Source: Spirogloea muscicola
Lineage: Eukaryota > Streptophyta > Zygnematophyceae > Spirogloeales > Spirogloeaceae
Assembly (NCBI GenBank): GCA_009602725.1
Contig: WELB01000034.1
Span: 42,410 to 67,617 of the forward strand
Reading direction: 5' to 3'
DNA length: 25,208 nucleotides
Below the pieces are notes generated by a model. It was not told the DNA's origin. It did not search any database and saw only the letters and a program-made list of their open reading frames with translations. The translations under genes and the position numbers were made by a program. Of this stretch, positions 361 to 23,412 are shown piece after piece (position 1 is the stretch's first letter; the number at the start of each line of letters is the position of its first letter).

Positions 361-966
361 GATTCTCTGATCAATGCTTCCCCTGGTTACCACTGATGTG
401 GTCGACCGCTCCAACCCGGGGCTTCCAGCCTCGCGGGCTGGCCACGCTGCGGCGAAGGCCGCTCGCAGCAAGGCGGCCAAACACGCCGACCACCCGGCTG
501 CCGATGAGTTCGCCCCCCTGGCTGTGGACGTGCACGGGGCTCTCGGATCCCACTGGCTCGACCTGTTAGCCAGGCTTGCACGGCGCGCTGTGTCCCGCAG
601 GCTTGGTGAGCCGGCTGACTTCAACGCCGCTGGCTCGTGGGCTCAGGTGTATCGTATGCGCTTGTCCGTCTCCCTCCAGCAGTCCATGGCCCACGCCTTG
701 CATCTGCGTGCTGGCCGTGCTCTCGCTGCGGCCTCCGGCTTTCGTCAGGGGGATAGTTTTCCGGCAGCTAGTCTGTCGGATGTGAGGCTCCTCACTCGTA
801 ACTACTGAGTGGACCATCCTCCCCCGTTCTGCCATAGCCTCTTCAGGCCCCGCGGTCGCTGCTTAGCTCGTAGCTCGTAGCTCGCTTTGGCCCCTTCGAA
901 CCTTGTCAATTCTTTTCGGGCTGGCTTCTCACAGCCCTTGCCCCCATTGGGAGAGCCACTCCTTCC
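360..966 (+). mobile_element. LINE 3' fragment: C-terminal coding end plus 3' tail
   Basis: An open frame at 374-808 encodes the C-terminal end of a non-LTR retrotransposon protein and stops at TGA 806-808. The stretch with KAARSKAAKH, then FAPLAVDVHGALG, matches the conserved region following the reverse transcriptase in many protist LINEs. It is followed by the family signature FNAAGSWAQVYRMRL, then RAGRALAAASGFR and LLTRNY-stop. The 3' untranslated tail contains the hairpin at 918-937 (GGGCTG, 8-base loop, CAGCCC). There is no reverse transcriptase here, so it is a 5'-truncated dead copy. The end signature recurs near 1520, 2300, 12150, 16120 and 18900. Family assignment is by motif recall, not by search. 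Confidence 0.75.
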
Positions 967-1188
967 CCTGGCCCCCTTCTCATACTTCGTTCCTTCTTTT
1001 TGGGGCTGGCTCCAGCCTCTATCCTCAATGGGCGAGCCCTTCTCTACTGAGTGCTTCGTAGCAGCTTTGTTTCTTCTTGTTGTGCTTGCTTTTCTCAGCG
1101 CTTCCCCTGGCCCCCTTCTCGTACTTAGTTCCTTCTTATTTGGGCTGACTTTTCCAGCCCCTATCCTCAATGAGCGAGCCCTATCTAA
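967..1188 (+). mobile_element. Two successive LINE tail-only copies
   Basis: Directly after the preceding tail come two further 3'-terminal modules in the same orientation. The first has its hairpin at 1002-1019 and ends near 1040. The second begins at about 1044 with the last codons (TAC TGA), keeps the 3' untranslated region and has its hairpin at 1142-1160. Both carry the downstream motif ctatcctcaatg(g/a)gcgagccc. They look like extremely 5'-truncated insertions, the second one base-substituted in the left stem (GGGCTGA). Confidence 0.6.
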
Positions 1189-1480
1189 AAAGCGCTAAGC
1201 AGCTACGAAGGGGCCTGAAGATGCTATGTCAGAACGGGGGAGGATGGACCACTCAGTAGTTACGAGTGAGGAGCCTCAAAACCGACAAACTAGCTGCCGG
1301 AAAACTATCCCCCTGCCGAAAGCCTGAGGCCGCAGCGAGCAGCTAGCAAGAACACGGCCAGCACGCAGATGCAAGGCGTGGGCCATGGACCACTGAGGGG
1401 AGACTGACAATCGCATGCGGTATACCCGGACCCACGAGCCAGCGGCGTTGAAGTCAGCCGGCTAACCGCGCCAGGCCATT
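1189..1480 (-). mobile_element. LINE 3' fragment, inverted
   Basis: On the minus strand this carries the same coding end as 617-808, ending RNY-stop with the TGA at 1255-1253, followed by the matching 3' untranslated sequence running down to about 1190, where it is interrupted by the plus-strand tail copy. The coding part has small insertions that break the frame, so it is a pseudogene fragment. With the copy at 360-966 it makes an inverted repeat (roughly 806-850 against 1205-1255). Confidence 0.6.
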
Positions 1481-1850
1481 AACCGGCGGCCGGGTCTGCC
1501 AGGGGCGATTCCCGGCTTCAACGCCGCCGGTTCGCTCGCACAAGTCTTCCGCATGCGCCTGGCCGTTTCGCTTCAATGCTCCCTTGCCCACGCCGTCCAC
1601 ACGCGCGCAGGCCGTGCTATGGCCGCCGCCTCTGGGTCTCGGCGGAGTGCCTCTTTCCCTGCAGCGAGCTACTCAGACCTGATGTTGCTCACTCGTGGGT
1701 ACCGAGCTTCCCTCTGCATCGTTTCTGTGTTCTGCACTGTTTTGTAGTGTAGTCCTTTCTCCGGGTCCTCTTTCTTTGGCTTTGGACGTTGTCCATTCAT
1801 TTTTGGGCTGGCTTTGCCAGCCCCTCTTCTCTATGGGCGCGCACTTCTTC
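1475..1850 (+). mobile_element. LINE 3' fragment, RGY subtype
   Basis: The plus strand reads GFNAAGSLAQVFRMRLAVSL near 1517-1580, then RAGRAMAAASGSRRS and SDLMLLTRGY. The stop codon found in the sister copy at 19036-19038 has mutated here (TAC CGA for TAC TGA). The tail hairpin is at 1805-1823 (GGGCTGGC-TTT-GCCAGCCC), and the module ends with ctatgggcgcgcacttct near 1848. Sequence upstream of the FNAAG motif (gccaggccatt...ccggcttcaac) is shared with the copy at 18800-19185, so both descend from a similarly truncated master or share the same internal region. Confidence 0.65.
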
Positions 1851-2400
1851 TGCGGGACACAGCGCGCCGGGCAAGCCTGGCCAGCAGCTCGAGCCACTGG
1901 GACCCGAGAGCCCCGTGCACGTCCACAGCCAGGGGGACGAACTAATCTGCAGCCGGGTGGTCGGCGTGTTGGGCCGCCTTGCTGCGAGCGGCCAAAGCAG
2001 AAAAGCAGTCCCCAGTAAAGAAGAAGTGGCTCTCCCAATGGGGGCAAGGGCTGTGAGAAGCCAGCCCGAAAAAAATTGACAAGGTTCGAAGGGGCCAAAC
2101 TACGAGCTAAGCAGGGACTGCGGGGCCTGAAGAGGCTATGGCAGAACGGGGGAGGATGGACCGCTTAGTAGTTACGAGTGAGGAGCCTCACATCCGACAG
2201 ACTAGCTGCCGGTAAACTATCCCCCTGACGAAAGCCGGAGGCCGCAGCGAGAGCACGGCCAGCACGCAGATTCAAGGCGTGGGCCATGGACCGCTGGAGG
2301 GAGACGGACAAGCGCATACGATACACCTGAGCCCACGAGCCAGCGGCGTTGAAGTCAGCCGGCTCACCGCGCCTGCAGGACACAGCGCGCCGTAAAGTGG
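1851..2400 (-). mobile_element. LINE 3' fragments on minus strand, composite
   Basis: A coding end runs from about 2443 down to a TAA stop at 2167-2165 (signature FNAAGSWAQVYRMRL, ending LLTRNY). It is followed by the 3' tail with its hairpin at 2048-2067 (GGGCTGTGAGAAGCCAGCCC on the plus strand). Below about 1995 the minus strand resumes with an internal LINE segment homologous to 480-620, encoding a VDVHGALGS-like stretch. Two insertions or a rearranged one are therefore joined here. Confidence 0.6.
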
Positions 2401-2612
2401 TAGTGAGCTCTTCTACGGCAGGTAGTCTGTCGCATTTCCTCACTCGTAGTCACCGAGTGGTCCATCCTCCCCCGTTCTGACGTAGTATCTTCAGGCCGCT
2501 GCTTAGCGCCTTCTTAGGCCCCTCCGTCAATTGGCCCCTTCGTCCCTTTGTCAATTCTTTTTCGAGCTGGCTTTCTCACAGCCCTTGCCCCCCTTGGGAG
2601 CGCCACTTCTTC
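2401..2612 (+). mobile_element. LINE 3' fragment, heavily truncated
   Basis: Only the last ~15 degraded codons of the LINE protein remain (ggcaggtagtctgtcgc, then ctcactcgtagtcacc), followed by the characteristic untranslated sequence gtccatcctcccccgttctg and the terminal module with hairpin at 2564-2584 (GAGCTG...CAGCCC; one G-to-A change gives a weaker pair). The module ends near 2612, about 90 bases before the SET-gene start. Confidence 0.55.
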
Positions 2613-2701
2613 CACTACTCCGCCAGGCCACTACCGAGGCGTGCTGCTACACATCAGCAGCCGCAGTCCACCTTGCCCATGGCGGCGGCGGGTCCGCCGT
2701 G

Positions 2702-5700
2702 ATGGGCGGCGCCGGCGCCCCCGCGCAGAGCGGCCACTCGTCGCTGGTAGACCTGGCGGACCTCCTGGCGGCGGGCCTGGACGACGGCGACGGCTGCGAG
2801 GCCGGGCGCCGNGCCGCAGAGCCCCGGCGCCTGGCGGCGCAAGCGCACCCTGCGCCGGCGCGACTTCTTCGCCGCCTCCGCTGGCCCCAATGGATTGCGG
2901 GGCGGAATGGCTGCCATCGAGGAGGAACTCGTCGGGAGAGGCTGTGGCCGTGCCGAGGCGAAGGGGAACTCCGAACGCGGCTCGTCTGGCAGCCACGCAG
3001 GCGAGGTGCTGGAGGCCCGTGACAGTGTCGTCTCTGGGACGGCGTCTCCAGACAAGCAGTCGTTTGCGTGGAGCGCCAAGAACGGCGGCATTGGCAGCGG
3101 GCCCTTCGATGCTCCAGGCTGGGACCAGACAGGAAGGAGCGGCCAACAAGGCCAGGCGCCCGTTGCAGGGCTGATTGGAGCTCGCGCCAAGCTGCTGCTT
3201 GGCAGCGGCAAGGGCGCTCTGACATCGGAGCGGATCGAGGCCATTGCTGCGCCACCGGAACCCACGGCACTGGGCGAGATGACGCCAGCAGCCGACCTGG
3301 CGGATGAAGCCACACTAGCCAGTGGCAGATGCAAGCTGCCAGAGCTTCTGGATGGGGACGGACCCTGCGCAGACATGGACTTCTTTCTTGCAGACATGGA
3401 CTCCCCGGCAAGGCCTGGTGCAGGCGCCGAGCAACCTTCAGGTGCCCTCGGGAGCTCTGTGGAAGCTGTCGCATATGTGGAAGCGCAGGCAGCCTGCGCC
3501 ACTCTGTCCCTGGCCTCGGCGGCGGGCGGTCGCACAGAAGCAGGAGCGAGCTCCAGGATTGCCTGCGTGGATGCAGTCTTGACTGGCCCCACTGGTAGGG
3601 TTCGTCTGAGCGCCACGATGCTGGAGCCAGGCGATGGCCGTGCACAGGAGGACTGTCAAGCTGCTCTGGCGGCATCGCCAGAGCCCCAGAGTGTGGAGTC
3701 AGAGCTGAGCCCTAGCACCAGGTCAGCAGCGAAAGCAGCAGGAGGCCTGACAGCAGCCGCAGTCGCGGCACTTGCGCTGGCGTTCTCAGAAGTGGACGAC
3801 CTGAGACATGCAAGAGTAATGCCTCTGCCAGAGCCTGGCAGTCTGCTGCCGCCGTTGGCTGTGCAGGGCGCCAGCGGAGCACCATTTGGCCCCATCTTTC
3901 CCCTCCCGCTGTGTGATGACGGACTCCAAGGTCAGCTACATATCCCAATATTTCAAGACCCCTACACCGGACTCCACACCAGCACCCCCTCCCCAAGCCT
4001 GCGCAATCTGAGTTGTGTCGTAGGGACTGAGCCCACTGTGCATCTCAAGGAGCCTCTGTGCCCTGCTGGTCTTGCTGCTTGCTGGGCAACTCTGCTAACA
4101 AGTGCCTGCGGTGTTACCTGCAGCTATGACCACCCCAAAGAATTTTGTCCTGCCGGCCCGCCTGAGGCGCCCGCATGGTCTCCCTGCAGCAAATCTGCCG
4201 GTAAGCAGCCGCTTCAGCTGGAGCCGCTCAATGCTTGCCTCGCAGTTGGAGAGCATGGCTGCACCTGTGCAACAACGTTAGATCCTCTCGAGCGCCACAC
4301 TGCGTGACAGAATGCCTGAAACTCGAATGTGGAGCACATGCTCTTGCAGCCAGTACGTCCGTCTCGCTCGCAGTAACTCACTTGTGAGCTGCTCAACGCT
4401 GCTCAACTGCTTCGTCGCCTGTGGCTGGTCATTAGGGGCAGTCCGGGGCACAGGCGCGGCAGCGCCCGCTGTACAAGCACCTCAAGAGGAATGTCATTGT
4501 CCACCGCTCGTATGGAACTCTCTACCTGCCTTGTAGTGTGGCAGCATAGATCATCGTGCCGGGCCCCATCATGTAAGGTGCCCGTAATATGATCTTATCA
4601 ATCCGTGGGGCATTGGGTGCCTTGGCGCACAGCCACAAGGTGGTCAGCGCGGACGAGGCCCCAGTGTGCGAGTGCTCCTATGTTGAGGGCGACGCAGGCA
4701 GCGCCTGCTCCGAGGACCGCTGCATCAATGCGCTGCTCGCTACGGAGTGCACTCCGGGCCTCTGTCCCTGTGGCGAGCGCTGCAGGAACCAGGTGAGCAT
4801 GTTGCTCATGCTTTTGATCAGTGACGCAAGCACGGCTGCTCGATCAGCCTCATGTTGGCCGTTTGTTCAATCAAGTTGGCTAGCCTGACTCCACTCCCTG
4901 CTGGGCTCGTTGCTGCAGCGGTTCCAACGGTGCGAGTATGCCAGGGTCAAGGTTGTTGCGACTGATGACGGGCGTGGTTACGGCTTGGTGGCTGCCCAGG
5001 ACATCAAGGTGTGCGCTGAAGTGGAAGGCAGTGTGTTGCCACAGTCTTGGATGCATTATCTCAATCAGCTTTCTTAGATTGCCGCTTGAACAAGAGTGTC
5101 TCATGCATAAGTCGCAGTATTGCAGGCTGGGCAATTTATGCTGGAATATTGCGGAGAGGTTATCACGGACAAGGAGGCAATCAGGCGAGCAGAGGCATAT
5201 GCTGCTGAAGGTGCACCCCCCCTCTCTTCATATGTTACTCGCTTGTCAACACGATCCAACAGCAGGTGCTCTTCTCCATAACTTGCCCTTACATGTTGAA
5301 TGTTGCAAAAGCCAGGCCTCTGCTATTGCTATTTAATGAGATTTGCAGTACAAGCAAAACTCATATCATAGCAAGACTAACTGAATCGGCCCTACCCATT
5401 CCAGGGGAGAAGAATCACTATATCTTGCAGCTGAGCGGCACCGAGTTTGTCGATGCGACCAAGAAGGGGGGCCTTGCTCGCTTTGGCAATCATTCATGGT
5501 AAGGGCAGCAGACTACATAGACTCATATTGTAAGTATCATAATGGCCGATAACTTCGCTAGGCTGGGAGGGTGCGAGCACAACAGGTCTCGTATTGTGCA
5601 TCCACTGCCACACAAGGAGGCCCATGAGACTTGTGAACACACAGTTGCCACTGCACAGCACTGAGATAGGCATGAGAGGGCAGCTGCATGGTTGGGTGTG

Positions 5701-6928
5701 CTAATTGCAAGAGCCGCCATTCTGCAGTGCTCCCAACTGCGAAACACGCAAGTGGAATGTGCTGGGGGAGGTGCGGGTGGGCATCTTCGCCAAGTACAAC
5801 ATTCCTGCAGGCGCGGAGCTCTCTTATGACTACAACTTTGAGTGGTTTGGTGGCGAGAAGGTGCAGTGCCGTTGCGGAGTAGCCTCATGCTCGGGCTTTC
5901 TCGGCGCCAAGTCCCGGGGCTTTCAGGCACGCTACCAAGAGAAGGGCCACTAAAGCCCTCCTGTACTTGACTTAGCAGTCCGAGGCAGGAGGTTCCCACC
6001 ATGTCTTGCAGCTCTATATCATGCACTACTCATATGAGGCTCAGGCTGGGACGATATGATTGCTTCATTAGAAGATTCAGGGCAAGTTATGGCAAGCATA
6101 GCACCGGAGCAGTGCAAGCTGACGACATGCAAGCTTCTCCCTGTGTTCTGCCGCAGCGGAATAAGCCATACTGGGAAGATGGTGAGGACAGGTCAGTGTA
6201 CTGCTGCTGCTGCTGCCACTGGCCATGATGGTACTGAGAAATCAACCATGCACGTATTGTCAGTGACTGAGCATGCAAGAAGAAAGCTTGACTGTGACTG
6301 CAACCTTTGACCGCAACTTCACAAGCGTGCTTACCAGGTCACCTGTTGCTTCTCATGCCATGAGGGTGCAGGTACCACATGGAGGACGTCCCTACATACG
6401 ACTCCGGGGACGAGGACCACAAGCCACCAATTGCAACTGTGCTCGGGCATGCGATGGGCGGCCCAGCAGTTCCCGCCAAACCTGTACACCATGTCCCACA
6501 GGATAAAGATGAGAAAAAGCTGGTGCAGAAGGAGACCCCGAAGAAGAAGGTACAGGCGAGGGTGGCAATGTCAGCTCCCACTACTGGCGAAGTGGATCTG
6601 ATAGAGTCCCCCAAAGCTGGGGCAGTGCGTTTGCCCGAGAATGTTGTGGTCGAAGTAGCAGTAGTAGTGGCCAAAAAGAAGAGGAGCGAGCGAAGGCGGA
6701 GCAGCATCACTTTGACTAAGGACGGGCAGGTAAAGAAGCGGCGGAAGGTGGCGGCGGTGGAGGCGCAGCACGCGAAGAGGACGAAAGGGCTGGTGGTGGG
6801 CATGCGCCCTGTCTTTGCAAAGAAGAAGCGTAAGGCTGCGACGGCACGCCCTCTGGAGGGGAAGGTTGTGTTGCAGCCTGTGATAGGGGAGGAGGGCGCA
6901 GGGCCGTTTCGCACAAAGAAGGCAAGAG
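2702..6928 (+). CDS. SET-domain histone lysine methyltransferase, ASHH1/SET2-like (multi-exon)
   Basis: Predicted to transfer methyl groups from S-adenosylmethionine to a histone H3 lysine (K36 by analogy with the SET2/ASH1 class) in the nucleus. Exons with mutually consistent phases: 2702-3930, 4124-4200, 4463-4509, 4633-4792, 4919-5008, 5126-5210, 5405-5498, 5728-5926, 6157-6191, 6372-6928 (or 6948). The first exon encodes ~410 residues of low-complexity Ser/Ala/acidic sequence. Exon 4633-4792 is a cysteine-rich AWS domain (VCECSY...ECTPGLCPCGERCRNQ). Exons 4919-5926 form the SET domain: LEYCGEVITDKEA, ARFGNHSCAPNCETRKW, ELSYDYNFEWFGG; then post-SET CRCGVASC. Downstream WEDGEDR and VPTYDS resemble the tail of Arabidopsis ASHH1. 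A Lys-rich basic segment (KKKRSERRR, KRRKV) follows. The intron after 5926 must use a GC donor. A single N at 2812 coincides with a frame change, so the first exon is uncertain. Confidence 0.85.
2812..2812. other. Single N with a frame change in the SET gene
   Basis: Before the N the coding-like frame is that of ATG 2702 (SLVDLADLLAAGLDDGDGCE); after it the coding-like frame is one step different (SPGAWRRKRTLRRRDFFAAS, leading to MAAIEEELVG). The N thus marks missing or extra bases, or a join. Confidence 0.6.
4633..4792 (+). other. AWS domain exon of the SET gene
   Basis: This exon starts after gcgcacag and ends before gtgagc. Its translation begins HKVVSADEAPVCECSY and closes with CPCGERCRNQ. 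The cysteine spacing is that of the associated-with-SET zinc-binding module which precedes SET in the SET2, ASH1 and NSD families. The one-base remainder at its start completes a serine codon with the upstream exon ending at 4509, giving NVIVHRSHK, which lines up with the residues just before the AWS in plant ASHH1. Confidence 0.85.
5927..6156 (+). other. Inferred GC-AG intron in the SET gene
   Basis: If exon 5728 is read on, it stops at TAA 5951-5953 after RYQEKGH, and no GT occurs before that stop. Splicing CAG|GCACGC at 5926/5927 to ccgcag|CGG at 6157 gives AKSRGFQ-RNKPYWEDGEDR, matching the ASHH1 order SRGFQ...WEDGDDR, with the phase preserved into the next exon (YHMEDVPTYDS). The alternative is that translation ends at 5953. 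Confidence 0.6.
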
Positions 6929-7073
6929 GTCAAGTCCAAGCTCGGGAGGTAATTGAGCAGGCTGACATACAATACTTGCACACCATTGTCTTTGAAGGCA
7001 TGGCAGGGTAGGCCTTGAATGGCGTGTAACTGCATGCTCTCATGCTGCCATGGTTGCCTTTGAATCCAATCAG

Positions 7074-7411
7074 CAAGCAGCCCTGGACTTGTCAGACAGG
7101 TACCTAGCTGGATAAAGGCAATCGTCAGTCAGAGACGCTTGACGATGGCGGAGCAGCATTTGATCCTTTGCTATGATGATGGTATGCAGAATGCTGCTGC
7201 GAGGGCTGCTTCTGCCTTGGCCTCTTTGAATGTATTGTTGCGACCAAAGGTGGAGGCGTGGCAGCGAAGTGAGCAGCCGGGAGTGCTGGCTGGTAGCTCT
7301 GAGGACTGGCTCACGTTGCGCAATCAGCAGCTGACGGCGGCTCTGGATTTTCATTGTTCCGTCCTATGGCACGGCACGGGCTGTGCTGACATTGATCAAA
7401 CCTGCCCTTGA
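7074..7411 (+). CDS. Probable further exon of the SET gene
   Basis: After the acceptor at 7073 the plus strand stays open through ASSPGLVRQVPSWIKAIV and MAEQHLILCYDDGMQ to a stop at 7411. Joining it to a donor at 6929 (GAG|gtcaag, phase 1) keeps the frame. A strong donor-like site (AA|GTGAGC) at about 7269 may end the exon early. I do not recognise the protein segment; its composition (Leu/Ala-rich helices, few repeats) looks coding. It could instead be an unrelated small gene. Confidence 0.45.
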
Positions 7412-7760
7412 CCTCCTGACGCCTGAACTGAGGCAGGCGACTCCAGCATTAAGGTCCACCACTTCAGTGCCTCTTTGAGCCTTCTGAATGATATGGATGC
7501 TGCTATTGGGCTCTTAGGTCGACAATGTGGACTCTGTGTGTGACAATCCGTCATCTTTTCCTCTGTGCCTTTGCAGACACACTGACTCAGACAGAGCAGC
7601 CTATCAAAGTCTGGGAGCCCAGATAGCTACTGGTCACGCCGGAACTTTGGTCCCCTTCACAATGTTGGCAGCCTACTGCTGGTGCACTGCCTAATCCAAC
7701 TGCTAGATGAGTTTGCAATTGCTTGCTAGATGTCTCTGCTGTGACTGAAATGTGCTCCAG

Positions 7761-7914
7761 GGAATGATGCAAGGTCGATGTGCGGTTCAGCTGTTGGAGG
7801 AGCAGAAGGACGACTGCCATTATCAGGAAAGCACTGCTTGTGCAGGCGGCACAGTGTTCAGCCGCAAAGATCCAGATGTGCGTGCATCATGGCTCTGCAA
7901 GTTACAGAAGGCAG
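7761..7914 (+). CDS. Possible exon, unrecognised protein
   Basis: A segment bounded by ctccag|GGA and GCAG|gtcttg is open in one frame (QLLEEQKDDCHYQ, then FSRKDPDVRASWLCKLQ). It could continue the SET gene or belong to a separate gene ending before 8.7 kb. No domain is recognised. Flanking 7412-7760 shows no coding signal that I can support. Confidence 0.35.
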
Positions 7915-8452
7915 GTCTTGTGCACTCGGACAGATTGATCACGACAGGCCTCAGCAATTTGGTGCGTCCTGCGCAACCAACGACTGAGCTCACTCAGTAT
8001 AGCAAGTAGATGTTTGGGCTAAAGGAGCGCTCCAGCTGTAGCTGATCAAGCATTGGGAGCTTGACTATCGCGCACATTCATGATGTTCTGACTCAGCAGT
8101 GGCCCTGAGTGTCATGCATGAGTCTGAGATGTGGATTGCCCGTAGATTGATTTGTCTGGCTGTCTGCAGCCTTGCAATTGTGGAGACAGAGTGTGATGCA
8201 TATAGTAGCACAGCATCGCTTGGTCTACAAGATGGTGGTGCTGGACCTAAAATGGAGGAATTAACAAGCTCTTGGCTCGGGGATGCGATGTACTTACTAC
8301 TTCAGTTGGGGTGGCTGGGGGTGGCTGGGGGTGGCTGGGGTAGCTTGGGGTGGCTGAATCAAAGTGGAGAATTGCTGCCAATTACATCTTCGACTTTGGA
8401 CTTGCACTCGCTAACCAGGGTAGTTGGTTCAATATATTCAAGTAATTAGCAG
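7915..8452. other. Non-coding stretch, probable intron
   Basis: No convincing exon is visible. It holds a GGGGTGGCTG minisatellite at 8308-8356 and is otherwise ordinary mixed-composition sequence. Confidence 0.4.
8308..8356 (+). repeat. G-rich minisatellite
   Basis: About four to five tandem copies of a 10-base unit GGGGTGGCTG, the fourth degenerate (GGGGTAGCTT). The runs of four to five guanines, repeated four or more times on one strand, could fold as a G-quadruplex in DNA or in the transcript. Confidence 0.8.
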
Positions 8453-8581
8453 CGGCTGTTCCAGCGGGTACACAAAGCTGCAAATTCCTGTCCACAGCTT
8501 ATGTATAAGGGAAAGGATCTACTTGTGCCAGTTATGGACACCCAAACAAGAGTGGGGCAAACTGGGCGGCTCGTTTCGCAG
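8453..8581 (+). CDS. Probable exon, unrecognised protein
   Basis: Exactly 43 codons lie between an acceptor (attagcag|CGG) and a good donor (TTTCGCAG|gtgaga). The translation is RLFQRVHKAANSC, then YKGKDLLVPVMD, then TRVGQTGRLVSQ. Phase 0 at both ends. It may be a late exon of the SET gene. No family is recognised. Confidence 0.4.
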
Positions 8582-8719
8582 GTGAGAAAGAAGAAGCCCT
8601 TCCAAGAGGTGACGACCATGGTCTTCACCGTGGGTGGCTCATTGGTGCCGATGACAAGGATGCCATGGTGGCTGTATGCGGGTAACATGTAAGGCGGACT
8701 CGTGCTTTGGTCTGCTGTC

Positions 8720-9050
8720 AAAAGAGTCGGGAGCACGGTATCTCATTCGGCTTGCCCCAAGAATGCTGGAATGGACAAGGTCCACAGGGCCGAAAGGTGC
8801 TACAACCACACAGCTATGCAAGAGGCTACAGAGCGGATGAGATCTTAGTAACCTCGAGTCAGCAGCCGCAAGTCGGAGTAATTTGCAGCTTGTTAAAGCC
8901 ACACCGACGAAATCCAGAAGTAGCAGCCAAAGCACGATCTGCCCGCGAGTGAGTGCACAGCGAGCTTGGGATTGTTGAAAGGAGATGGGGAGTCAAAGGA
9001 TCCAGTGACGTTGATTAAGAGTTCAGCCGAAAAAGCTGATGTGCCATGCC
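8720..9050 (-). mobile_element. Decayed LINE 3' end
   Basis: The minus strand reads ANYSDLRLLTRGY and a TAA stop at 8847-8845, aligning with the AASYSDLMLLTRGY-stop of better copies. Upstream on the same strand, FQQSQA, a degraded RAGRALAAA and SGFRR align in order with small frame-breaking indels, and INVTGSFD aligns with FNAAGSWA. The untranslated region then includes ggaccttgtccattc. It is much more diverged than other copies here, so probably older. It lies antisense to the end of the SET transcription unit or just beyond it. Confidence 0.6.
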
Positions 9051-9626
9051 TTTCTGAGATGAACGGCCTGCTCGGGAACAGACAAGCACAAGGGCAGTAG
9101 TCAGAGATCCGCATAGAGAGTGAAAGTAGGCAATCCGGGTGCGGGACAAGTGTTCCGCCAGTCCCTCAGCCATCGGCTCTCCTTTGAAGTAGGAGAGCTG
9201 GAGTGAAGGCTGCAACCATGCCACATGGAAAGACTGCCGGGGACGTATTTTGAGCTGATGCTCCAAAACAAGAAGCAACTTTTACCACTCTGAACTCTAC
9301 AGCCATGCTCACGGACTTGCCAACCATGGCACCAGCAGTCCACATTCGCGTCACAACTATGACACTAACTTTACTTGGCCCATGCACATATTGGAATGCC
9401 TTCTCAGGTCTCCTGAACTTTGTGGTCGGACACCGAAGCACTCTGGTGTTGCGGCCTGAGTGGAAGGACGAGCTCAGCTCCCTCGCCGCCTGCTTGATAG
9501 TAGACCTTCAACAGCATCTGTCGCCACAATCTTCAGGGATCTCAGGAATCGCATACGAGCACATACAACAATGGCTATCTAGGGCTGCTCAGGCACCCCA
9601 CATGATAGGCAACATCTATGAAGGAC
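9051..9626. other. Spacer with an unassigned open frame
   Basis: A plus-strand open frame covers 9305-9640 (LRPEWKDELSSLAACLIVDL, then GLKQT-stop), possibly an exon beginning after ttctcag at about 9409. No family is recognised and it runs into the 3' end of the opposite RuvX-like gene, so I do not call it a gene. The rest shows nothing. Confidence 0.25.
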
Positions 9627-10933: not shown

Positions 10934-11935
10934 CTGGAGAAGAGGGGACAGAGGGGTGGATTAGTATGGGGCCAGTACACATCGGCCTTGCTGAATCTGG
11001 TGCACATATGGAAGCAGTATAGTACCAGCGTAGCATTACTTCAGCTGGCCCTAGACCAAGTGACGGACATGACCAACTCTTGTATCCAACTCCTGGAGTC
11101 TGAGCATGTGCCATGGATCTCGAACATAACCCTAGCGACTGATTGGGAAGCCTGATGAAGCACAACCAGAGGAGGCTGACCCAGAGAAAATGGCCATCAA
11201 GAGGCAAGATGTGTCCAGGTAATCAAGTATGTGATTGCCAGGACGTCTGCCAAGCCAGGGCAAGGAGCAGTAGACTGCTGGCTCGGCACTTCAGCTCGCG
11301 AGCTGGCAAATACTGGAGCTTCTTCAGGAGGCTCTGCTCCCCCGTATGGCTGTGAGCCAGCCAGGATGCAGCCCTTTGCAGCATACTGTATGATTGACGG
11401 AGCCAAGCTGCCACAATGGACGGGAACGGCTGCAGCAGCACGCAGCACCTGGCTCCGCCAACTTCGTCACTGCTACTCGTTGCCGCCGTGCCCGCTGGCG
11501 AGGCCCCCGTCGCCGGCTGCCCAGGCCTGCCGCCGCAAGCAGGCGCTCGAACCTCGCCTCCTCGGCGGCTGCCATTGCTGCTGGAGCTCGCTCAACATCT
11601 CCACCTCGCGCTGCCGCGGGACGCTCGCCGCCCGTCAGCACCTGCCTCGACGCACCGGCGCCACCGCGGTCACCTGCCGCGGGGCCTGCCTCTGCGGCGG
11701 CGGCGGCGGCGGCCCGCACAGCAGGGCCTGGCCGGCGCTGCCGGGCACTCCTGTCAGCTGCTGCATCCACCGGCACGCGGACCCTCGCCCGGCTCCTGCA
11801 CGCCTCGCCGGCAGATCGTCGCGAGGCGAGGCCGGCCGGGCTGGCGGCGGCGGCGGCAACGGATGCGGCGGCGACGGCCGCAGCGGCCATGCTCCTGAGT
11901 GTTGCCGCAGGGACGGCGTTTGTGGCAAGGCGGAG
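10934..11935 (-). other. Probable 5' part of the RuvX-like gene
   Basis: Between 11400 and 11900 the minus strand is open from an ATG at about 11892-11890, giving a long Ala/Arg-rich, low-acid peptide (MAAAAVAAASVAAAAASPAG, later ARFERLLAAAGLGSRRRG). This composition fits an organelle transit peptide in a GC-rich alga and would suit the RuvX-like protein, but I could not define the splice from here to the exon beginning at 10933. The plus strand is also open across this GC-rich stretch, so the call rests on orientation and neighbourhood. Confidence 0.35.
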
Positions 11936-12240
11936 AAAGTGCTCGCCCATTGAGAATAGGGGCTGGAAAAGCCAGCCCAAAAAAGAATCAACAAAGGACG
12001 AGAAGCGCTAAGAAAACCAAGCACACAAAGAAACAAAGCAGCTACGGATCACTCAGTAACCCCTGCTAAGCAGCCTCAGGTCACAGACGCTAGGCTCCTG
12101 GAAGTGGGTCCCCTAGCCAGAGCCAGAGGCAGCAGCGAGGGCTCTGCCGGCCCGCAGATGCAGCGCGCGGGCCATCGACCGCTGCAGCGAGACGGCCAAG
12201 CGCATTCGGTACACCTGCGCTAGCGACCCGGCTGCAGGAC
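11936..12240 (-). mobile_element. LINE 3' fragment with premature TAG
   Basis: Minus strand: AAGSLAQVYRMRLAVSLQ, LHLRAGRALAAASGSG, an in-frame TAG, then GTHFQEPSVCDLRLLSRGY and a TGA at 12055-12053. The sister copy at 16097-16207 has CAG (Gln) where this has TAG, so it is a point mutation. The tail carries hairpin 11978-11960 and ctattctcaatgggcgagcac. The tail ends only about 45 bases upstream of the candidate start of the RuvX-like gene. Confidence 0.7.
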
Positions 12241-12365
12241 AGAGAAGCGCGGCCAGATTGACTGGTGGCTGGGAAAGGCCAGCCCAAAGAATAGACAAGG
12301 TCTGAGGGAGCCTGAGTGCGAAGGACGGCGGAGGTGGGCCAGCGCCTCTGAAGCGCACCCTGCAC
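12241..12365 (-). mobile_element. LINE tail-only fragment
   Basis: The minus strand carries accttgtctattctttgggctgg and the hairpin at 12284-12267 (GGCTGG...CCAGCC) with only untranslated sequence upstream. It abuts the coding end of the neighbouring LINE copy, as expected for nested or adjacent truncated insertions. Confidence 0.55.
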
Positions 12366-12750
12366 GCACTACAACCCAGGGGCCTCCTGCGTACGAGGGC
12401 CTCCGATACTGGCTGGCAGTTTACAGCCGATTCTTCTATATCAGCAGCCGCATTCTCTGATACACAAGCAGCTGAACTTTCCTCGAGGGCTGTGTAAATA
12501 GAAGTTGACAAGCTTCCCACAAGGGGGTAATGGCTAAGGACAGCGCGCATGAGGTGAAAGGGAGGCCAATGCAAGCCAGTACATAGGTCCGGCAAAGAAA
12601 GAAATGAGCATCTTCCAAATGGGGCGGGGATGTTTCAGTCAGGCCAGAAAAACCGAGGAAAGGTTAGTCCAGAGCAGAGTGGACAAGGTCCGACGTGGCC
12701 GGCAAATGCCATATCACGTACCTATGCAGGTACGCCAGTGGCTACAGCAA
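12366..12750. other. Spacer with LINE-associated repeat
   Basis: No gene is visible. Bases 12655-12725 (gagtggacaaggtccgacgtggcc and following) resemble 18655-18720 and, less closely, 235-310. This appears to be another module of the same retrotransposon family or its insertion environment. Confidence 0.35.
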
Positions 12751-15700
12751 AGCGAGAGGAGCGCTGCCTGTATCCCAACCTCGCCGGCAGACTAGGCTTG
12801 CAGCAGGAGGATTGGCCCCTCCAAGGCAGACGAGGACATTCAGCCAAAGCGCCACATGCTAGCAGCAAAGAGACGCAGGGTATGCTCACGCACTTGTGCT
12901 CAGGCCCGTCCTTTGAGCCCCTCCATTCTCATCGACTTCCTCTAGTGACTGGTCACTCGTGCCAGCTGGCCATTTGCCTTACCTCTCTCATTGCTGGGCC
13001 ATTTTTGTACACTTTCCCGGATAAGACACTTCACCCTAGACGCACTTCTGCCCGTTTGAATGACTGTACAATCGGTCTTCTGCAGCAACTGTGAATTGTT
13101 GCTAGAAGCATGTCATGAGGGTGGTCAGACATTCAAGGATGACCTCGGGCATTCATGTGAAGCAATTCCATGTCTGCCTTTCAAACCTTCGACCTCTTTC
13201 CACTGGGCAAGTCATAATAGTCCTCCACATCACGTCGACCCCTGGCATTCCCTCGCTCTTTCTTCTGCCTCTCCAGAATCTGATTAATCTTGTGAAGCTC
13301 ATTGTCAATCTTGTGATCCCTTGAATTGTCCTTTTCACGATCCTTTCCAGTCTGATTGTACTTTCGAGTTTTCCGCCCATCCTGCGCTTTCACACCAAAT
13401 TGCATGGCTGCCTTGGTGGTTGCCTCCTTGGCTTCATTATACTTCCCCCAATCCTCCTCATTGTCAAAGTCCCACCGCTGCAACCGGCCTTTGACCTGCA
13501 CGTTGTACGCCAGGCTCTCAACAATAGAAGATGGTGAAAAGCAAATGCCAAGAAGGTCATGTAGTTGATAAATGAGAAGGTGAAGACTCAAGAGGAAGTA
13601 AGAAGCCAGTGGAGGCGGAGTCTGACCTTGCCACCGGTGTCAACATCTGCCGCCTTCACTGCTGCAGGCCCTCCCGCGCCCTCTTCATCACTGTCTACAA
13701 CCTCCCTGCTGTACTCCTGGTAGCCAGGGTAGCACTCCGAGTAACTCTCACTTACGAAGGTTGGGTCCTTCTCTCGAGTGTCCTTCTCTCGTCGCGCCTT
13801 CTCCTTCTCATCATCGCGGAAGAAGACCGACCCCAGGCCCTTGTCCTTCTCCTCCTGGGTCATCACTTTCTCCCCAGCCTCCAGTGGAAGCTCCTGATAT
13901 GGGTCAGCATAGGGAACAGCGTCCTGGTACGGCGGCGGGCCTGCGGGATAGGTAGGATATGTGTAGGCTGTTGGATATGCTTGATATGTGGCGGCATCGT
14001 AGGCACCATTTCCCGGTGGAGGTGCATGTACATCTTCCAGGTATTCTCTGCTCGGGCCCGGCATTGTTGGCCCCTGCTCTGGTCCAAGCTCTGCTGCAGT
14101 TGCCTGGAAGGACATGTATGACAAGCTCATATGAGTGACACGCATTGCCTTCCGAGCCATGGTATTTTGGCGCATGTAGTGCTGCTCTGTGCAGCAGCAT
14201 AGCCAACACCATCAGTTGTTCCTTCGCTTGCTGGCTGCATTCACGAAGGCCCCTGAATGTGCATGGATGATATAATGGAATAGCATCTCTGCCAAGGCAG
14301 CCCCAAAACACCTGAGGAGGCTGAGGCAGGGGCACTGGCAGGCTCTGCTGCTTTTCAAAGTAGGTGGACTTGCCACCTCGCCTGCCTCTGCTCCTACTAG
14401 GCGAGCCTTCCCGTGCTTCTCCGGCAACTGGAGCAGGCCTCCCATTGGCCTTGCTGGGCAACGATGGCACATATTCTGTATCAACGTCCTCGAAGATGTT
14501 GTCCTCTGTGCGTCGTGGTGGAGGGGGAGGAAGAGGGGGGCCTCCTGAAGCCTGTGCTTCCTCCACATTCCCAATAGCATCTGCAGCATGAAGTGCTGGC
14601 TCCTCTACGTCCTCTTCGGTTGCGATGGAGATTCCCTTCACAAGGACTACAATATTGCTGAAAGTCAAAGTCTGCTAGGTAAAGCTTGCACAAGATCAAC
14701 TTGAGAGTGGAGCAGATCCAGCACTGACCCCCTTCTCAAGGGGGAAAGGTTGCTGCGACACGGCCATTGTCGATTGCACCAAGTATCCTGTGAAGGTCAT
14801 CTTACTTCGTGAATCTAGCTTGTCCTTCTTCTTCTTCTTGAGAACCTGCAGGTGGTAAGCAAGTGGCACAGATAGTGAATGTTACACCAAGTTTAGGCAA
14901 CTATAAGCAAGCCAAATGTGGAGCCAGCAGCTCCTCAAAGCAACAAGTATCTGACTGTTACCTTGCCAGAAGAGCCGAGGCGAAGATACGCCATAATCTT
15001 TGCAATCCGGTCCAGAACAGCCCCGTCCACAGACGCAGCAATCGCTTCCTGTTCAGCGCAGGGTCAATGCTATTCTCGTCATTAAGCAGGCTCCTCTTGT
15101 CAAGCAGCAGCTTCACTAACTGCTGCCTACTCCGAAGTGATGGCTCCCAGCCCATGCTTCTCATGCACCTGGACATCAACTCAGGAACTTCACGTGGATG
15201 CAATTCTCCAGCTAGATGGGCACAGAGGCCTGATACCTCAGGAGCAGGGCAATCTGCCTTGCTTCGATGGACTGTTGTGGGGAGCTCATGTGCAAAGTCA
15301 TCATCCTGTCCCAGGCCTTCTCACCCAGTATTAGCTCAAGTGTTGCTGCAGCCAAGCTCAAATGCATAGCTCACATGCCAAGTGCTGGAAGCAGCAGTCA
15401 ACATGTTGCCATAGGGTCAAGGCACTGCCAATGCCAGTAAGCCACTGACCATGTCAAAAAGGTACGCAGTGCGCCCTGGCAAGAACATCTCATTGACTTT
15501 ATTCAGCAAGTGAGGTCGCAGAAGAAATTGGTACACGGCCTGTCAGTTTCAAATTTGTCAAGAAGTTTCCTAATCAGTCACTTGCAGGTAAATCTGTAAT
15601 GGAAACTCAATCAACTCAGGGATGCGTGTCTCCTTGTAGCAGCTGAGAGGTCCAAGTAAACCAATGCTGGACACAAATTGGCCATAAGAAAGAAACCGTT

Positions 15701-16095
15701 GGTAACCTGTGCAGTGCATGAGTGGAACTTCATGGCTTTGTCCTCCTTCGCCTCCCTGCAAGACATTCCAATTTTCAAAAGCCCTCGCACGGCTGCTACC
15801 ATTCCTGTCTACCCTTCTTGGGCTGCTTCTTGACGTGCATCAGAGATGCAAGTGCACTGACAGCAAGACGAGCAGCCTGCAAACAAGACCCGTTGCTGCT
15901 GTTGTCCGGCTTGACTGATACTGCTGTGCCATGAAGACACACAATAACCACACTCCTTGTCGGACTCTGTGGTGGCAAGACGAGGCATCCTGGTGATGTG
16001 TGATTTGGAGATTGTAAAGTGTTTTGATACCTTGCCCGGTCCTCCTCACTGTCATCCTTCTTGTCCATCTCACTGCGAATCTTCTGCAACAGCGC
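12750..16095 (-). repeat. Segmental duplication, copy 1 (partner 20075-23412)
   Basis: The stretch aligns with 20075-23412 in the same orientation, through exons and introns of the RED gene and about 430 bases of its 3' flank. Similarity is highest across exons and lower in the flank (12750-13180). It stops exactly at the N at 16096. The 16.1-20.07 kb LINE cluster separates the copies. Confidence 0.85.
13181..16095 (-). CDS. RED/IK splicing factor, copy 1, 5'-truncated
   Basis: RED (IK) is a spliceosome component that works with SMU1 in activation of the B complex in the nucleus. Minus-strand exons: 16095-16031 (cut), 15856-15800, 15755-15707, 15539-15450, 15305-15237, 15048-14962, 14845-14806, 14646-14312, 14103-13627, 13495-13181. 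Every length matches the corresponding exon of copy 2. The coding sequence starts within ALLQKIRSEMDKKDD and keeps EMFLPGRTAYLFDM, LPTTVHRSKADCPAPE, NIFEDVDTEYVPS, STYFEK, ESYSECYPGYQEY and GRLQRWDFDNEEDW to the TGA at 13183-13181. All splice sites are intact apart from one altered but usable donor (gtcagt for gtgagt after FDM). No frame break is seen, so it does not look like a pseudogene despite lacking roughly the first 115 codons. The missing part is replaced by an N and a LINE fragment. Confidence 0.85.
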
Positions 16096-16096
16096 N
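16096..16096. other. Single N at a homology breakpoint
   Basis: The base before the N is the last one matching RED copy 2; the base after it starts a LINE coding fragment on the opposite strand. This suggests a scaffold join or unresolved consensus rather than a true biological junction. Confidence 0.7.
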
Positions 16097-16330
16097 CTGC
16101 ACCTGCGTGCAGGCAGAGCCCTCGCTGCTGCCTCTGGCTCTGGCCAGGGGACCCGCTTCCAGGAACCCAGTCTCTCTAACCTGAGGCTGCTTAGCAAGGG
16201 TTACTGAGTGCTTCGTAGCTGCTTCGTTTCTTTTCTGTGCTTGTTGTTCTTCGTACTTCCCCTGGCCCCTTCTCGTCCTTTGTTCATTCTTTTCTGGGCT
16301 GGCTTTTTCCAGCCCCTATCCTCAAGAAGG
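16097..16330 (+). mobile_element. LINE 3' fragment, KGY subtype
   Basis: Plus strand: LHLRAGRALAAASGSGQGTR, then LSNLRLLSKGY and TGA at 16205-16207. The untranslated region gtgcttcgtagctgcttcg follows, then the tail hairpin at 16296-16315 (GGGCTGG-CTTTTT-CCAGCCC) and ctatcctcaa. It is the closest relative of the copy at 11936-12240 and lacks that copy's premature stop. Confidence 0.7.
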
Positions 16331-18375
16331 AGCTCCACCACCTGGTCTTAGGCCGCTTTGTCCACCAACGCAGTGAAGCGGGCCTGGGCCCGCAGGTCGG
16401 GGGTGTGCGCGAGGTGGCCAAACGGAACGACCTGCTTCGACATGTCGGGGTGGGCCGCCAGGAGCCTGTCGCGGGCAGCCCCATCGCCGTGGAGAAAGAG
16501 GCCGCATCTACCTCCGCCATGAAGCGAGCTTGGGCCCGGAGGTCGGCCGTGCGTGCGACGTGTGCAAACGGAACGGCCTGTGGCACCAGGGCGGGGTGAT
16601 CCGCAAGCAGCGCATCCCGGGCTGAGCGGAGAGCCGCCTGGAATGGCAACGTGCCAGTCTCCACATCCGCTACCACCTGCTCCAAGAGGCGACCCCCATG
16701 CCGGATAAAACGCTGGGCCACCGAAGCCGCAACCTGCGCCTAACTCTCCAGGTGTGCTGCCCGCCACGCACGAGCCAGCGGACGGCAGCCCAGACCCCCT
16801 CGGCTCACAGGCAGGCAGGCCCGGTGCACTGCAGCCGGCGTCTCCAGGAAGGCCGGGTGTTGGACCAGGGCCGCTGTGCTGGCCAGGATACCTGCATCGA
16901 ACGTGGCATAGGCGGCCTGCGTCGCCGGGGAGGGGGGAAGGGCTCGAGCCAGATACAGGGGATGTTGGGCAATGCAGCGCGTCAGCATGGCGAGCCCTAG
17001 CTGCATATAGTGCAGCTCAGGGAGGCGGGCCGCCGGCTTGAAGTGCTCCTGCAGCTTGCCACGCAGCTGCTCATCCACGAAGGCAGGTGAGCCCAATGGA
17101 ACCCTGAGGAGTATGAGGCCCCCGGTTGGCGTTTGACAGCCGGAGGGTAGGCGGAGGAGGGCTGGCAACCCTTGTGGGGACCAAGCCCTACTCTTTGACG
17201 CTCGGATGTCCAGGCCGATCTCCTTCAGCTGCTCCTCAAGGGTGCGAAGGCGGCCAAGACCTCGTCTGGTTGCCCGATCAGGGTGGTGTCGTCGGCACAG
17301 GTGGGCATGAGGACGCCCGGGTGAGCAGCTACTGTGGCCTTCAGGGCGCGGTCGTGGGCCAGCGCATAGAAGAACCCCGCCAGCGGGTCCCCCTGACGCG
17401 TGCCCGTGGAAGACCGGAGGACCTCCACCCTGCTGGTGCCATGCCGCCATAGGAGATCACTGGGCTAGCCGTAGCCCATCCGGAAGAACGGCAGCAGGGT
17501 GGGGAAGGCCTCGCGGAGCTCCTCGGCGACAGCGGCGGGGTCGACGCAGTTAAAGGCATTGCGGACGTCCACCGCCAGCACCACCCACTCGGGGTGCAAG
17601 TCGAGGGAAGCCCGCAACCCATGGACGACTGCTTCGCCGCCGCTCCGCAGGCCTGCGCCATACTGGTGCGGCGCCAGGTGTGTCTGGGCCGCATCGGCGT
17701 GCTGTTGCCAGAGTGCCCGTCCCACCAGGCGGTACAGGACCTCGCTGATCGCAATGGGGCGGACGCTGCCGTTGACCTTGCTGAGGGCCAGCAGGGTGTT
17801 GGCACAGAGCACACCGCGGATGCTGGCAGGGACGTGACCTCGGGCCTTGTGTTGGCAGACCTGGTGCAGCACCCGAAGGTCCGCCTCGTCCCCCTCGAGG
17901 AAGAGCTCCTTCAAATGCTCCGTAACCATGCGCGAGGGGCCGCCTGCAGCTGCACGCCGGCTGCTCTGCAAGGCCTTGCGGAGGGCTGCCGCATCAAGGG
18001 CCACCTCCTCCGGCGAGACGTAGGAAGCCAACCACGAAGGCAGGGGAGAGCGCTTTGGGGGGTGGAGGGACGAGAGGGCTTGCCGCGTGTCCTCAGTCGC
18101 CGGCGCCAACACCGTATCATCCAGCGCCTGGACGGCTCTCGAGAACTCCCCGGCATGGCCATACTGGAGAGCGCGGCGGACACTGGCCGCCCTGTCAGGC
18201 GATGGCGCTGTCTGCGAAGTGCGGCGGTCGGCTGTGGCCGCAGCCACTGCAGCGTCGTCCCGCGCCAGAAGCTCCTCCCATCGCCCGCACTCAAATAGGT
18301 AGGTGCGGTCCACGAGCAGCTGGCGGCCTTGGCCGTGGCCCTGGGGGGGTGCTCGCCCGAGCAGCAGCCTGGGGA
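16331..18375 (-). pseudogene. LINE reverse transcriptase, broken
   Basis: Minus strand, reading down from 18313. RT fingers/palm motifs are visible: GGPSRMVTEHLKEL, GSVRPIAISEVLYRLVGRAL, WVVLAVDVRNAFNCVDP, then RSSTGTRQGDPLAGFFYAL and the catalytic CADDTTLIG near 17295 (CADD replaces the usual YADD/FADD). The order and the RPIA..E..YRL.G motif are those of non-LTR retrotransposons. An in-frame TAG at 17467-17465 follows RMGYG. A frameshift near 17230-17250 moves reading into the frame containing LEEQLKEIGLDIRASKSRAW and SRGGLGCRPL, which meets another TAG at 16742-16740. The end carries a degenerate internal duplication (see 16351-16632). It cannot encode an active enzyme as it stands. Confidence 0.85.
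16351..16632 (-). repeat. Degenerate tandem duplication inside the LINE
   Basis: Two units of about 135-140 bases, 16632-16500 and 16490-16351, encode related peptides: HPALVPQAVPFAHVARTADL with RAQARFMAEVDAA, and HPDMSKQVVPFGHLAHTPDL with RAQARFTALVDKAA. The second unit is now one frame off the first. This looks like an old in-frame duplication in the post-RT region that later shifted. Confidence 0.7.
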
Positions 18376-18440
18376 AGAGAGAAGTGCGCGCCCATAGAGA
18401 AGAGGGGCTGGCAAAGCCAGCTCAAAAAAGAATGGACAAG
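18376..18440 (-). mobile_element. LINE tail-only insertion (~65 bases)
   Basis: The minus strand gives cttgtccattcttttttgag, hairpin 18423-18405, then ctcttctctatgggcgcgca and cttct. It is flanked by LINE coding sequence on both sides and has no coding sequence of its own. The shortest clear example of a terminal module by itself in this window. Confidence 0.65.
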
Positions 18441-18665
18441 AGCCAAGCAGACAGGTTGGGGGGGAGACCCAACAGGCGATGGGTGGCCGTACGGAATAGT
18501 TCATCCGGCATCCTGAGGGCATTGTACAGGGGGAGCGCGGAGAGCCAGGCTGCCGCGCCAGGGGAGGCGGCCGACAGCAGCCGAGCATGGGCGCGCACGT
18601 CTGTTGGAGGGAGGAGCTGCAGCATGGCCGTGAAGGACGCCTTGTCGACTGAGAAGAGTGGACAG
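18441..18665 (-). mobile_element. LINE post-RT coding fragment, out of order
   Basis: The minus strand encodes FSVDKASFTAMLQLLPPTDV, ARLLSAASPGAAAWLSALPL and FRTATHRLLGLPPNLSAW. The SAASPGAAAWLSALP stretch is characteristic of the region downstream of RT in many protist LINE proteins. Here it lies upstream of the RT on the same strand, so it belongs to a different copy. The frame runs into the tail module at 18440. Confidence 0.6.
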
Positions 18666-18799
18666 GGTCCGGCGTGGCCAGAATGCGCAAATTCACATAC
18701 CCACGCAAGTACGCAGGGGCCAACGGTGATCGGGTGCTCAAAACCCCTAACCAGCAGCCGCAAGTCAGAGAAATAGTAGTAATTTCTAACCTGCGATTG

Positions 18800-19185
18800 C
18801 CCGCCAGGCCATTGACCGGCGGCCGGGTCTCCCAGGGGCGATGCCCGGCTTCAACGCCGCCGATTCGCTCGCACAAGTCTTCCGCATGCGCCTGGCCGTA
18901 TCGCTTCAACGCTCCCTCGCCCACGCCGTCCACACGCGAGCAGGCCGTGCTATGGCCGCCGCCTTTGGGTCTCGGCGGAGTGCCTCTTTCCCTGCAGCGA
19001 GCTACTCAGACCTGATGTTGCTCACTCGTGGCTACTGAGCTTCCCTCTGCTTCGTCTCTGTGTTCTGCAGTGTTTTGTAGTGTAGTCCTTTTCCCGGCTC
19101 CTCTTTCTTTGGCTTTGGACATTGTCCATTCTTTTTTGGGCTGGATTTGCCAGCCCCTCTTCTCTATGGGCGCGCACTTCTCTCG
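18800..19185 (+). mobile_element. LINE 3' fragment, best-preserved RGY copy
   Basis: The frame is intact from about 18838: MPGFNAADSLAQVFRMRLAV, then HAVHTRAGRAMAAAFGSRRS and SDLMLLTRGY to TGA 19036-19038. The 3' untranslated region then runs about 85 bases to the terminal module with hairpin 19138-19156 (one change in the loop-side stem, GGGCTGGA) and ctatgggcgcgcacttct. Nearly identical to 1475-1850. Confidence 0.7.
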
Positions 19186-19492
19186 ATTGCTTACTAGAGG
19201 TAACTAAGTGAGTAAGGCATTTGCTTAGTTGGAAGCAAGGAAGTGGTTTCGTAGTTGTGTTTCAACGCTTTCCGGCCCCTTCGGACCTTGTCCGTCCTTT
19301 TCTCTGGCTTTCGTCTAGGGGACTGCTTTCTGGCAGCTAGCCTTTCTGACTTGCGGCTGCTGACTAGAGGTTCATATTGGCCATCCTTCGTGGTCTTGAT
19401 AAGTTGTGTGTTTCAGCTGTTCGGCCCTTCAAACCTTGTCCGTTGTTTTGGGGCTTGCTCTTCACAGCCCTCGCGCCCTTTGGAAGAGCTCA
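19186..19492 (+). mobile_element. Two nested LINE 3' ends of a diverged subtype
   Basis: First, RLLTRGN and a TAA at 19207-19209 with its untranslated region. Second, after ggaccttgtccgtcc, a short coding end GFRLGDCFLAASLSDLRLLT at about 19306-19364 without a clear stop. This is followed by a tail with hairpin 19450-19470 (GGGGCT...AGCCC) and cgccctttggaagagctc. Both start inside the last ~25 codons, so the truncation is extreme. Confidence 0.55.
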
Positions 19493-23100: not shown

Positions 23101-23412
23101 ACCTCATAAGCCCTCGCACGACTGCTACCATTCCTGTCTTCCCTTCTTGGGCTGCTTGTTGACGTGCATCAGAGATGCAAGTGCACTGACAGCAAGACGA
23201 GCAGCCTGCAAACAAGACCCGTTGCTGTTGTTGTCCGACTTGACTGATACTGCTGTGCCATGAAGACTCACAATAGCAACACTCCTTATCGAACTCTGTG
23301 GTGGCAAGACGAGGCTTCCATGCATGACTTGGAGATTGTGAAGTGTTTTGATACCTTGCGCGGTCCTCCTCACTGTCATCCTTCTTGTCCATCTCACTGC
23401 GAATTTTCTGCA
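20075..23412 (-). repeat. Segmental duplication, copy 2 (partner 12750-16095)
   Basis: Homologous to 12750-16095 over exons, introns and 3' flank. Across the last RED exon (about 305 compared bases) I count 18 substitutions, of which one changes the protein (Arg in copy 1, Gly in copy 2 within NA(R/G)GRRD). Confidence 0.85.
20161..20291 (+). CDS. Possible last exon of a convergent gene
   Basis: After ctctcag the plus strand is open as AECADEGFSMKEDPAQVLAA, then AKRRKVRFCSGPSFEPLHLI and NFL with a stop at 20289-20291. The homologous site near 12840-12960 keeps HMLAAKRRRV and the sequence encoding the end, but with an indel that changes the frame. KVRF fits the RVxF docking pattern for protein phosphatase 1, though such short matches are common. 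The upstream exon is not identified. Confidence 0.3.

Follow-up and report, generated by a model that had tools for sequence, protein, structure and literature searches.

A 25,208-nt stretch of the Spirogloea muscicola genome (assembly GCA_009602725.1, contig WELB01000034.1, positions 42,410 to 67,617 of the forward strand; G+C 56%; here referred to as the window) contains a hairpin-bearing module that forms the 3' end of inserted, 5'-truncated retroelement copies. It is a genuine, selected 3'-end module of elements resembling long interspersed nuclear elements (LINEs); the arrangement is already known, and the window provides a new example. The window probably carries a cluster of apparently dead, 5'-truncated LINE-like (non-long terminal repeat, non-LTR) copies from at least four subfamilies, with a ~70-nt 3' end that most likely acts as a recognition tag for the element's reverse transcriptase (RT), as in stringent-type LINEs. 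The RNA would lack poly(A) and terminate with a U-rich stretch, the hairpin and a block finishing near C(A/C)CTTCT; the RT would bind this 3' module, start target-primed reverse transcription at a nick and yield mostly short cDNAs. Analogous cases are the short two-stem core of R2Bm and the zebrafish L2 proteins that read stem and loop.

Copies and 3' boundaries of the module

All 12 hairpins that the first-pass annotation had listed were confirmed in position and strand (Table 1). An nhmmer profile built from the same 12 modules, which matches its own members by construction, recovered them with a worst E value of 5.3e-13; the next matches had E values of 0.03 and 0.036, and no further module copy was found in the window below E 0.03. 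The copies were sorted into subfamilies A, C, P and D, labels assigned in this analysis, with four, four, three and one hairpin, respectively. The earlier statement that the module ends every copy was too strong, as the hairpin is present in 12 of the 14 tail pieces that we counted by hand, the other two being copy A3 and an A-type half-module. The copy holding a probable RT fragment has lost its own 3' end.

The boundary of the element is known exactly at one site. Copy P1 sits inside the minus-strand copy A3, which a BLAST comparison of the window with itself showed to be split into 1993-1850 and 1472-1194, and the interrupted stretch is continuous in A1 and A2, which gives an empty site for P1. 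Because A1 and A2 are uninterrupted at the insertion point, the end of P1 can be fixed at CACTTCTT (position 1849) and its start at ~1473. Candidate target-site duplications (TSDs) follow the module in two further copies: P2 is flanked on both sides by the 7-bp CGATTGC and A2 by the 6-bp CTTTAC, where matches of at least 7 and at least 6 bp occurred in 1.1% and 4.3% of 20,000 random site pairs, both candidates having been noticed by eye ahead of this control. Six of the 12 3' junctions end in C(A/C)CTTCT (A2, A5, C1, P1, P2 and P3) and four lie within one change of it (A1, C2, C3 and D1), most copies then showing a few pyrimidines. The terminal block is no longer recognisable in C5 and A6; in C5 the block downstream of CTATCCTCAA is not conserved and the hairpin is kept. 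No poly(A) was found at any of the 12 junctions, and LTRs were looked at by self-comparison of the window alone. The tails have the module in common and differ in their 5' ends, with the exception of P1 and P2. Taken together, the empty site, the TSD candidates and the 3' junctions show that elements which inserted here, truncated at the 5' side, have the module as their 3' end. The assignment to retroelements made in the first-pass annotation thus held, aided by the conservation of the module described below and by the probable RT fragment nearby.

It could be argued that the module lies beside LINE tails by happenstance, either as an element in its own right or as a site at which insertions are favoured. 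C1 (~82 nt) and P3 (63-69 nt) hold little beyond the module, and in six of the 12 cases (A1, C1, C2, P1, A2 and D1) a further LINE tail piece follows within 80 nt downstream. Against this, P1 and P2 each comprise open reading frame (ORF) tail, 3' untranslated region (3'UTR) and module as one unit, bounded by the empty site and the candidate TSD, respectively, and copies of the same subfamily match across tail and module together. We consider this explanation very improbable.

Two features of the arrangement of the copies were also observed. Four modules run into a LINE piece of like orientation, meeting its 5' end with no obvious spacer (A1-C1, C1-C2, D1-C3 and P3-RT; sites 963-1045, 12235-12241 and 18376-18380, P3-RT being judged by reading frame). 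By analogy, such abutting pieces would be explicable by template jumping, as in R2, or by insertion into old copies, as in Zepp. In addition, P1 and P2, whose flanks differ, share a length of ~380 nt and have 5' starts no more than ~5 nt apart. Instead of being truncated at random, they may represent a short non-autonomous form of the element; these are the only two copies that bear on a possible short interspersed element (SINE) partner.

Table 1. Module-bearing copies, tail pieces and coding pieces in the window (positions count from the first base of the window).
Feature	Position	Strand	Remarks
Module A1	893..963	+	hairpin 918-937; upstream ORF tail 371-805, then 3'UTR
Module C1	977..1044	+	hairpin 1002-1019; element only ~82 nt (from 962); adjoins A1 and C2
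Module C2	1117..1186	+	hairpin 1142-1160; copy ~1045-1186
A3, 3' part of interrupted copy	1194..1472	-	3' end at 1194 without module
Copy P1	1473..1849	+	inserted in A3 (basis: empty site); module 1780-1848, hairpin 1805-1823
A3, 5' part of interrupted copy	1850..1993	-	1993-1850 matches 457-600 at 93% (BLAST, window against itself)
Copy A2	2021..2391	-	hairpin 2048-2067; candidate TSD CTTTAC at 2392-2397 and 2015-2020
Module A5	2540..2611	+	hairpin 2564-2584, broken stem
Copy C3	11935..12236	-	hairpin 11960-11978; minimum-energy fold includes outer helix
Module D1	12241..12307	-	hairpin 12267-12284; adjoins 5' end of C3
Copy C5	16097..16330	+	hairpin 16296-16315; starts at assembly N 16096
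Module P3	18380..18448	-	hairpin 18405-18423; flanked by a coding piece on either side; 63-nt self-match
Copy P2	18801..19183	+	hairpin 19138-19156; candidate TSD CGATTGC at 18794-18800 and 19184-19190
Half-module, A type	19274..19301	+	ends before hairpin; profile match 19280-19309, E 0.56
Module A6	19425..19496	+	hairpin 19450-19470, strongly decayed
ORF tail of A1	371..808	+	longest tail
Probable RT fragment	17465..18421	-	weak RVT_1 match; frame broken downstream; own 3' end missing
Coding fragment upstream of P3	18440..18700	-	Pfam: only zf-CCCH_6, below cut-off, E 0.013

Conservation and folding of the module

The subfamilies were compared using one copy of each. Module likeness was matched by none of 2000 mononucleotide shuffles in each of the six pairs, whereas the 3'UTR outside the module was at shuffle level (shuffles scoring as high: A-P 112/500, A-C 372/500, P-C 113/500). 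All 12 columns of the six-pair arms agree between the consensuses of A, C and P, compared with 27 of the 49 remaining module columns (Fisher p 0.002) or 18 of 30 columns of the inner flanks only (p 0.008), and a 7-bp version of the stem gave 13 of 14 identical arm columns (p 0.026 against the inner flanks); the consensuses come from 3-4 copies and the columns were picked post hoc, which makes the p values indicative only. Adding the single D copy leaves 11 of 12 arm columns identical, and beyond the hairpin 10 of 22 columns are conserved in A, C and P. Because the module alone exceeds shuffles and its arms are identical in the three subfamilies, we conclude that it was under selection and is the sole part of the 3'UTR kept by the source lineages. 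The real evidence for function lies in this conservation between subfamilies. The presence of the module at the end of the copies says little, since target-primed reverse transcription begins at the 3' end and retains it in every copy, functional or not.

Purifying selection on the source lineages was also evident in the ORF tail. Over its last 56 codons, four between-subfamily comparisons gave a nonsynonymous rate (dN) of 0.20-0.26 against a synonymous rate (dS) of 1.4-2.5, and the source lineages were therefore under purifying selection, with neutral sites near saturation. Within subfamily A, the tails of A1 and A2 differ by three replacement and no silent changes and thus show no purifying pattern. 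Slower substitution in the arms within subfamilies appeared at first (p 0.018) and was rejected once ragged edges and the non-homologous end of C5 were removed (4/132 vs. 18/325, p 0.34).

Selection on structure, which the first-pass annotation had read from the retained pairing, was not borne out. Among the 11 copies of A, C and P, four of the five arm substitutions relative to the consensus break a pair and one makes a G-U; the outermost pair is broken in D1, and none of the four A copies retains the seventh. Decay of the copies shows no visible preference for keeping pairs, as would be expected of dead copies. Pairs are formed in 89.3% of 84 cells, compared with 89.7% in column shuffles, a weak control for pairing since the columns barely vary, and 42-68% when partners were slid by 1-3 columns, the latter contrast speaking for the tag. 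Subtypes had been said to differ in loop and stem length: differences occur in the loop (~2 to 9 nt across copies, both arms fixed) and in the innermost pairs, and A, C and P share their stem letters. Nor is pairing kept in every copy, as had been claimed, the hairpin being part of the minimum-energy fold in nine of the 12 modules; C1 (1002), A5 (2564) and A6 (19450) fold otherwise.

Perfect 6-bp stems are in themselves not rare, at ~3.6 start positions per kb of window and in 2.6-12.6% of shuffled modules. In a control with 1000 shuffles per module, the longest perfect stem (with the number of shuffles reaching it) was 8 bp in P1 (0), 7 in P2 (6) and 6 in P3 (45); 7 in C3 (8), 7 in C5 (21), 6 in C2 (46) and 5 in C1 (156); 6 in D1 (58); and 6 in A2 (90), 6 in A1 (110), 4 in A5 (675) and 3 in A6 (998). 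Folding predictions make an RNA structure of the module plausible and leave it unproven, and as evidence for such a structure the window alone is insufficient.

Folding also predicted a second helix outside the hairpin, not noted in the first-pass annotation, in two of the three multi-copy subfamilies, P and C, where the tag may fold as two helices, the hairpin lying within the outer one. All three P copies pair TGTCCAT, upstream of the hairpin, with ATGGGCG on its 3' side in their minimum-energy folds, and the C consensus is predicted to pair CTCGTCC with GGGCGAG and TTG with CAA. These consensuses, entered manually with ties settled by hand, folded better than 998 of 1000 (P, z -3.4) and 1000 of 1000 (C, z -4.1) shuffles; single copies gave z values of -4.4 (P1), -2.5 (P2), -1.3 (P3), -4.9 (C3) and -2.1 (C5). 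In A, the consensus was predicted to form the 6-bp hairpin and not the outer helix. Two apparent signs of covariation in the outer helix were set aside: one pair had two two-sided cells (C2 and C5), a count reached by 330 of 500 shuffles, and the C5 cell was discounted because its 3' block is not homologous; in A the helix needs a one-base register shift, which was not counted as covariation.

Besides the post hoc choice of columns, a number of results weigh against a folded 3' tag read by the element's RT. No two-sided change was found in any of the seven hairpin pairs over the 12 copies, and RNAalifold gave six pairs, none two-sided, with a covariation term of +0.26. Of the four C copies, C3 alone adopts the outer helix of the C consensus in its minimum-energy fold, and the P-type outer helix pairs in 72.9% of cells over the 12 copies, with covariation within the shuffle range. 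The A consensus folds no better than its shuffles (z -0.36), as a hairpin without the outer helix, the single A copies range from z -0.48 to +0.43, and C1 (-1.7), C2 (-1.7), D1 (-1.25) and P3 (-1.33) are not clearly beyond shuffles. A comparison of cognate with non-cognate duplex energies was rejected as not significant, the consensus diagonal being the best of only six permutations by 0.6 kcal/mol. Target sites gave a divided picture for the expectation that the module lies beside TSDs: among five copies in the window, P2 and A2 provided the candidates above, the duplication at P1 is at most 1 bp by its empty site, and the 4-bp flank matches of C3 and A5 are at chance level (52% of random trials). 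Finally, no copy in the window joins a module-bearing tail to an RT, the RT fragment matched RVT_1 with an E value of 4.5e-4 and 20.4 bits, under the Pfam cut-off of 29.6, and the five other frames of its region gave no Pfam match.

Part of this evidence may suggest that the module is conserved as primary sequence and not as a fold, such that the RT or another factor reads the letters of the U-run, GGGCTG...CAGCCC and the terminal block; the arms would then be complementary by accident or only to aid presentation. The invariance of the arms in the A, C and P consensuses, the lack of two-sided changes and the occurrence of an equally long stem in 9-11% of shuffled A1 and A2 modules all fit such a role. 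However, folding of the P and C consensuses is far more favourable than that of shuffles, and the arms are fixed despite the varying loop length; we regard this alternative as possible and as clearly the less likely one. The hairpin could also serve RNA 3'-end formation or transcription termination instead of RT recognition, given its place near the 3' end, downstream of a U-rich run, in copies without poly(A). Yet the ~25 nt past the hairpin were also copied and are partly conserved, so the RNA end does not lie at the hairpin, which makes this role improbable. Recognition of the module by the RT remains our preferred explanation.

Coding pieces, relatives and neighbouring sequence

We infer from its proximity that the RT fragment belongs to the same family as the tails. 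The motifs VDVRNAFN, RQGDPLAG and CADD were read in it by eye as presumed counterparts of known RT motifs. The coding part of the same copy contains a tandem 116-bp duplication (16361-16476 and 16507-16622, 73% identical). The coding fragment upstream of P3 resembles, by eye, what we take to be the post-RT part of another LINE copy. The 145-aa tail of A1 matched nothing in Pfam at E values up to 5 and nothing meaningful in the PDB; it may resemble restriction-like endonuclease domains. AlphaFold models were poor for both the A1 tail and the RT fragment (predicted local distance difference test, pLDDT, 54 and 38).

Relatives were sought with single-protein scans, which reach close relatives only. 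None was confirmed for the RT fragment among one pattern match in viral contigs and 44 in genome contigs, nor for the A1 tail protein among five in viral contigs. Three DNA patterns of the module yielded two viral-contig matches, both in unrelated sequence without the second arm (701 and 601 bases inspected), and the other two DNA-pattern scans (genome contigs, viral contigs) gave no match. Rfam at gathering thresholds returned no match, and a PDB sequence search no RT or endonuclease. In the literature, no report was recognised as describing this module, most subscription journals being outside the coverage.

The surrounding sequence contains a 3.3-kb duplication (12751-16095 and 20078-23419, 91% identical) with part of a RED/IK-like gene. 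RED_C was matched in both copies and RED_N only beyond the second (23671-24144), and the first copy stops exactly at the single N at 16096. This looks like two haplotype contigs joined in the scaffold, or a recent duplication. A 64-bp repeat was also present (12672-12735 and 18651-18714, 80% identical).

Comparison with known elements

Recognition of the 3' end determines which RNAs a LINE can copy. A tag that stays fixed while the remaining 3'UTR turns over, without poly(A), would if confirmed help to establish how old stringent recognition is among green algae and plants, and the module would offer a short tag testable with purified RT. A broader proposal, which we hold to be possible but doubtful, is that one fixed-stem tag was kept across at least four LINE subfamilies with otherwise unrelated 3'UTRs, that a single RT could mobilise all of them together with the short non-autonomous ~380-nt P copies, and that this tag, belonging to an algal element that lacks poly(A), has a core of two helices comparable to that of R2.

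In the stringent-type LINEs ZfL2-1, ZfL2-2 and UnaL2, ORF2 reads a stem-loop of the 3' tail, the stem generally and the loop specifically (PMC4176376), and UnaL2 ends in TGTAA repeats (PMC3747384). The window copies share with these stringent LINEs a predicted stem-loop at the 3' end; in contrast to those elements, whose recognition was tested, they are known from sequence and carry no terminal repeat past a few pyrimidines. In a monocot L1 subgroup (Ohshima), the last ~45-50 nt are conserved and the rest has diverged, and the stem shows compensatory changes (PMC3747384). The conserved 3' end amid a diverged remainder is similar, but the stem letters vary with compensation in the monocot elements and are fixed in the window, with no compensatory change.

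The Zepp/ZeppL elements of Chlorella, Coccomyxa and Chlamydomonas form clusters of 5'-truncated 3' ends through insertion into older copies (PMC8226300), and Zepp belongs to the L1 clade and ends in poly(A) (PMC8226300, PMC3747384). The 12 window junctions lack the poly(A) found in Zepp and L1-1_CR, whereas the clustering of 5'-truncated 3' ends is shared. R2 is site-specific in 28S rDNA, with template jumping reported (PMC3414825), and in R2Bm a 43-nt tag with two stems suffices (PMC10499050). The window copies differ from R2 in that no common target was seen among them; they resemble it in that the modules of subfamilies P and C are also predicted to form two helices within ~70 nt.

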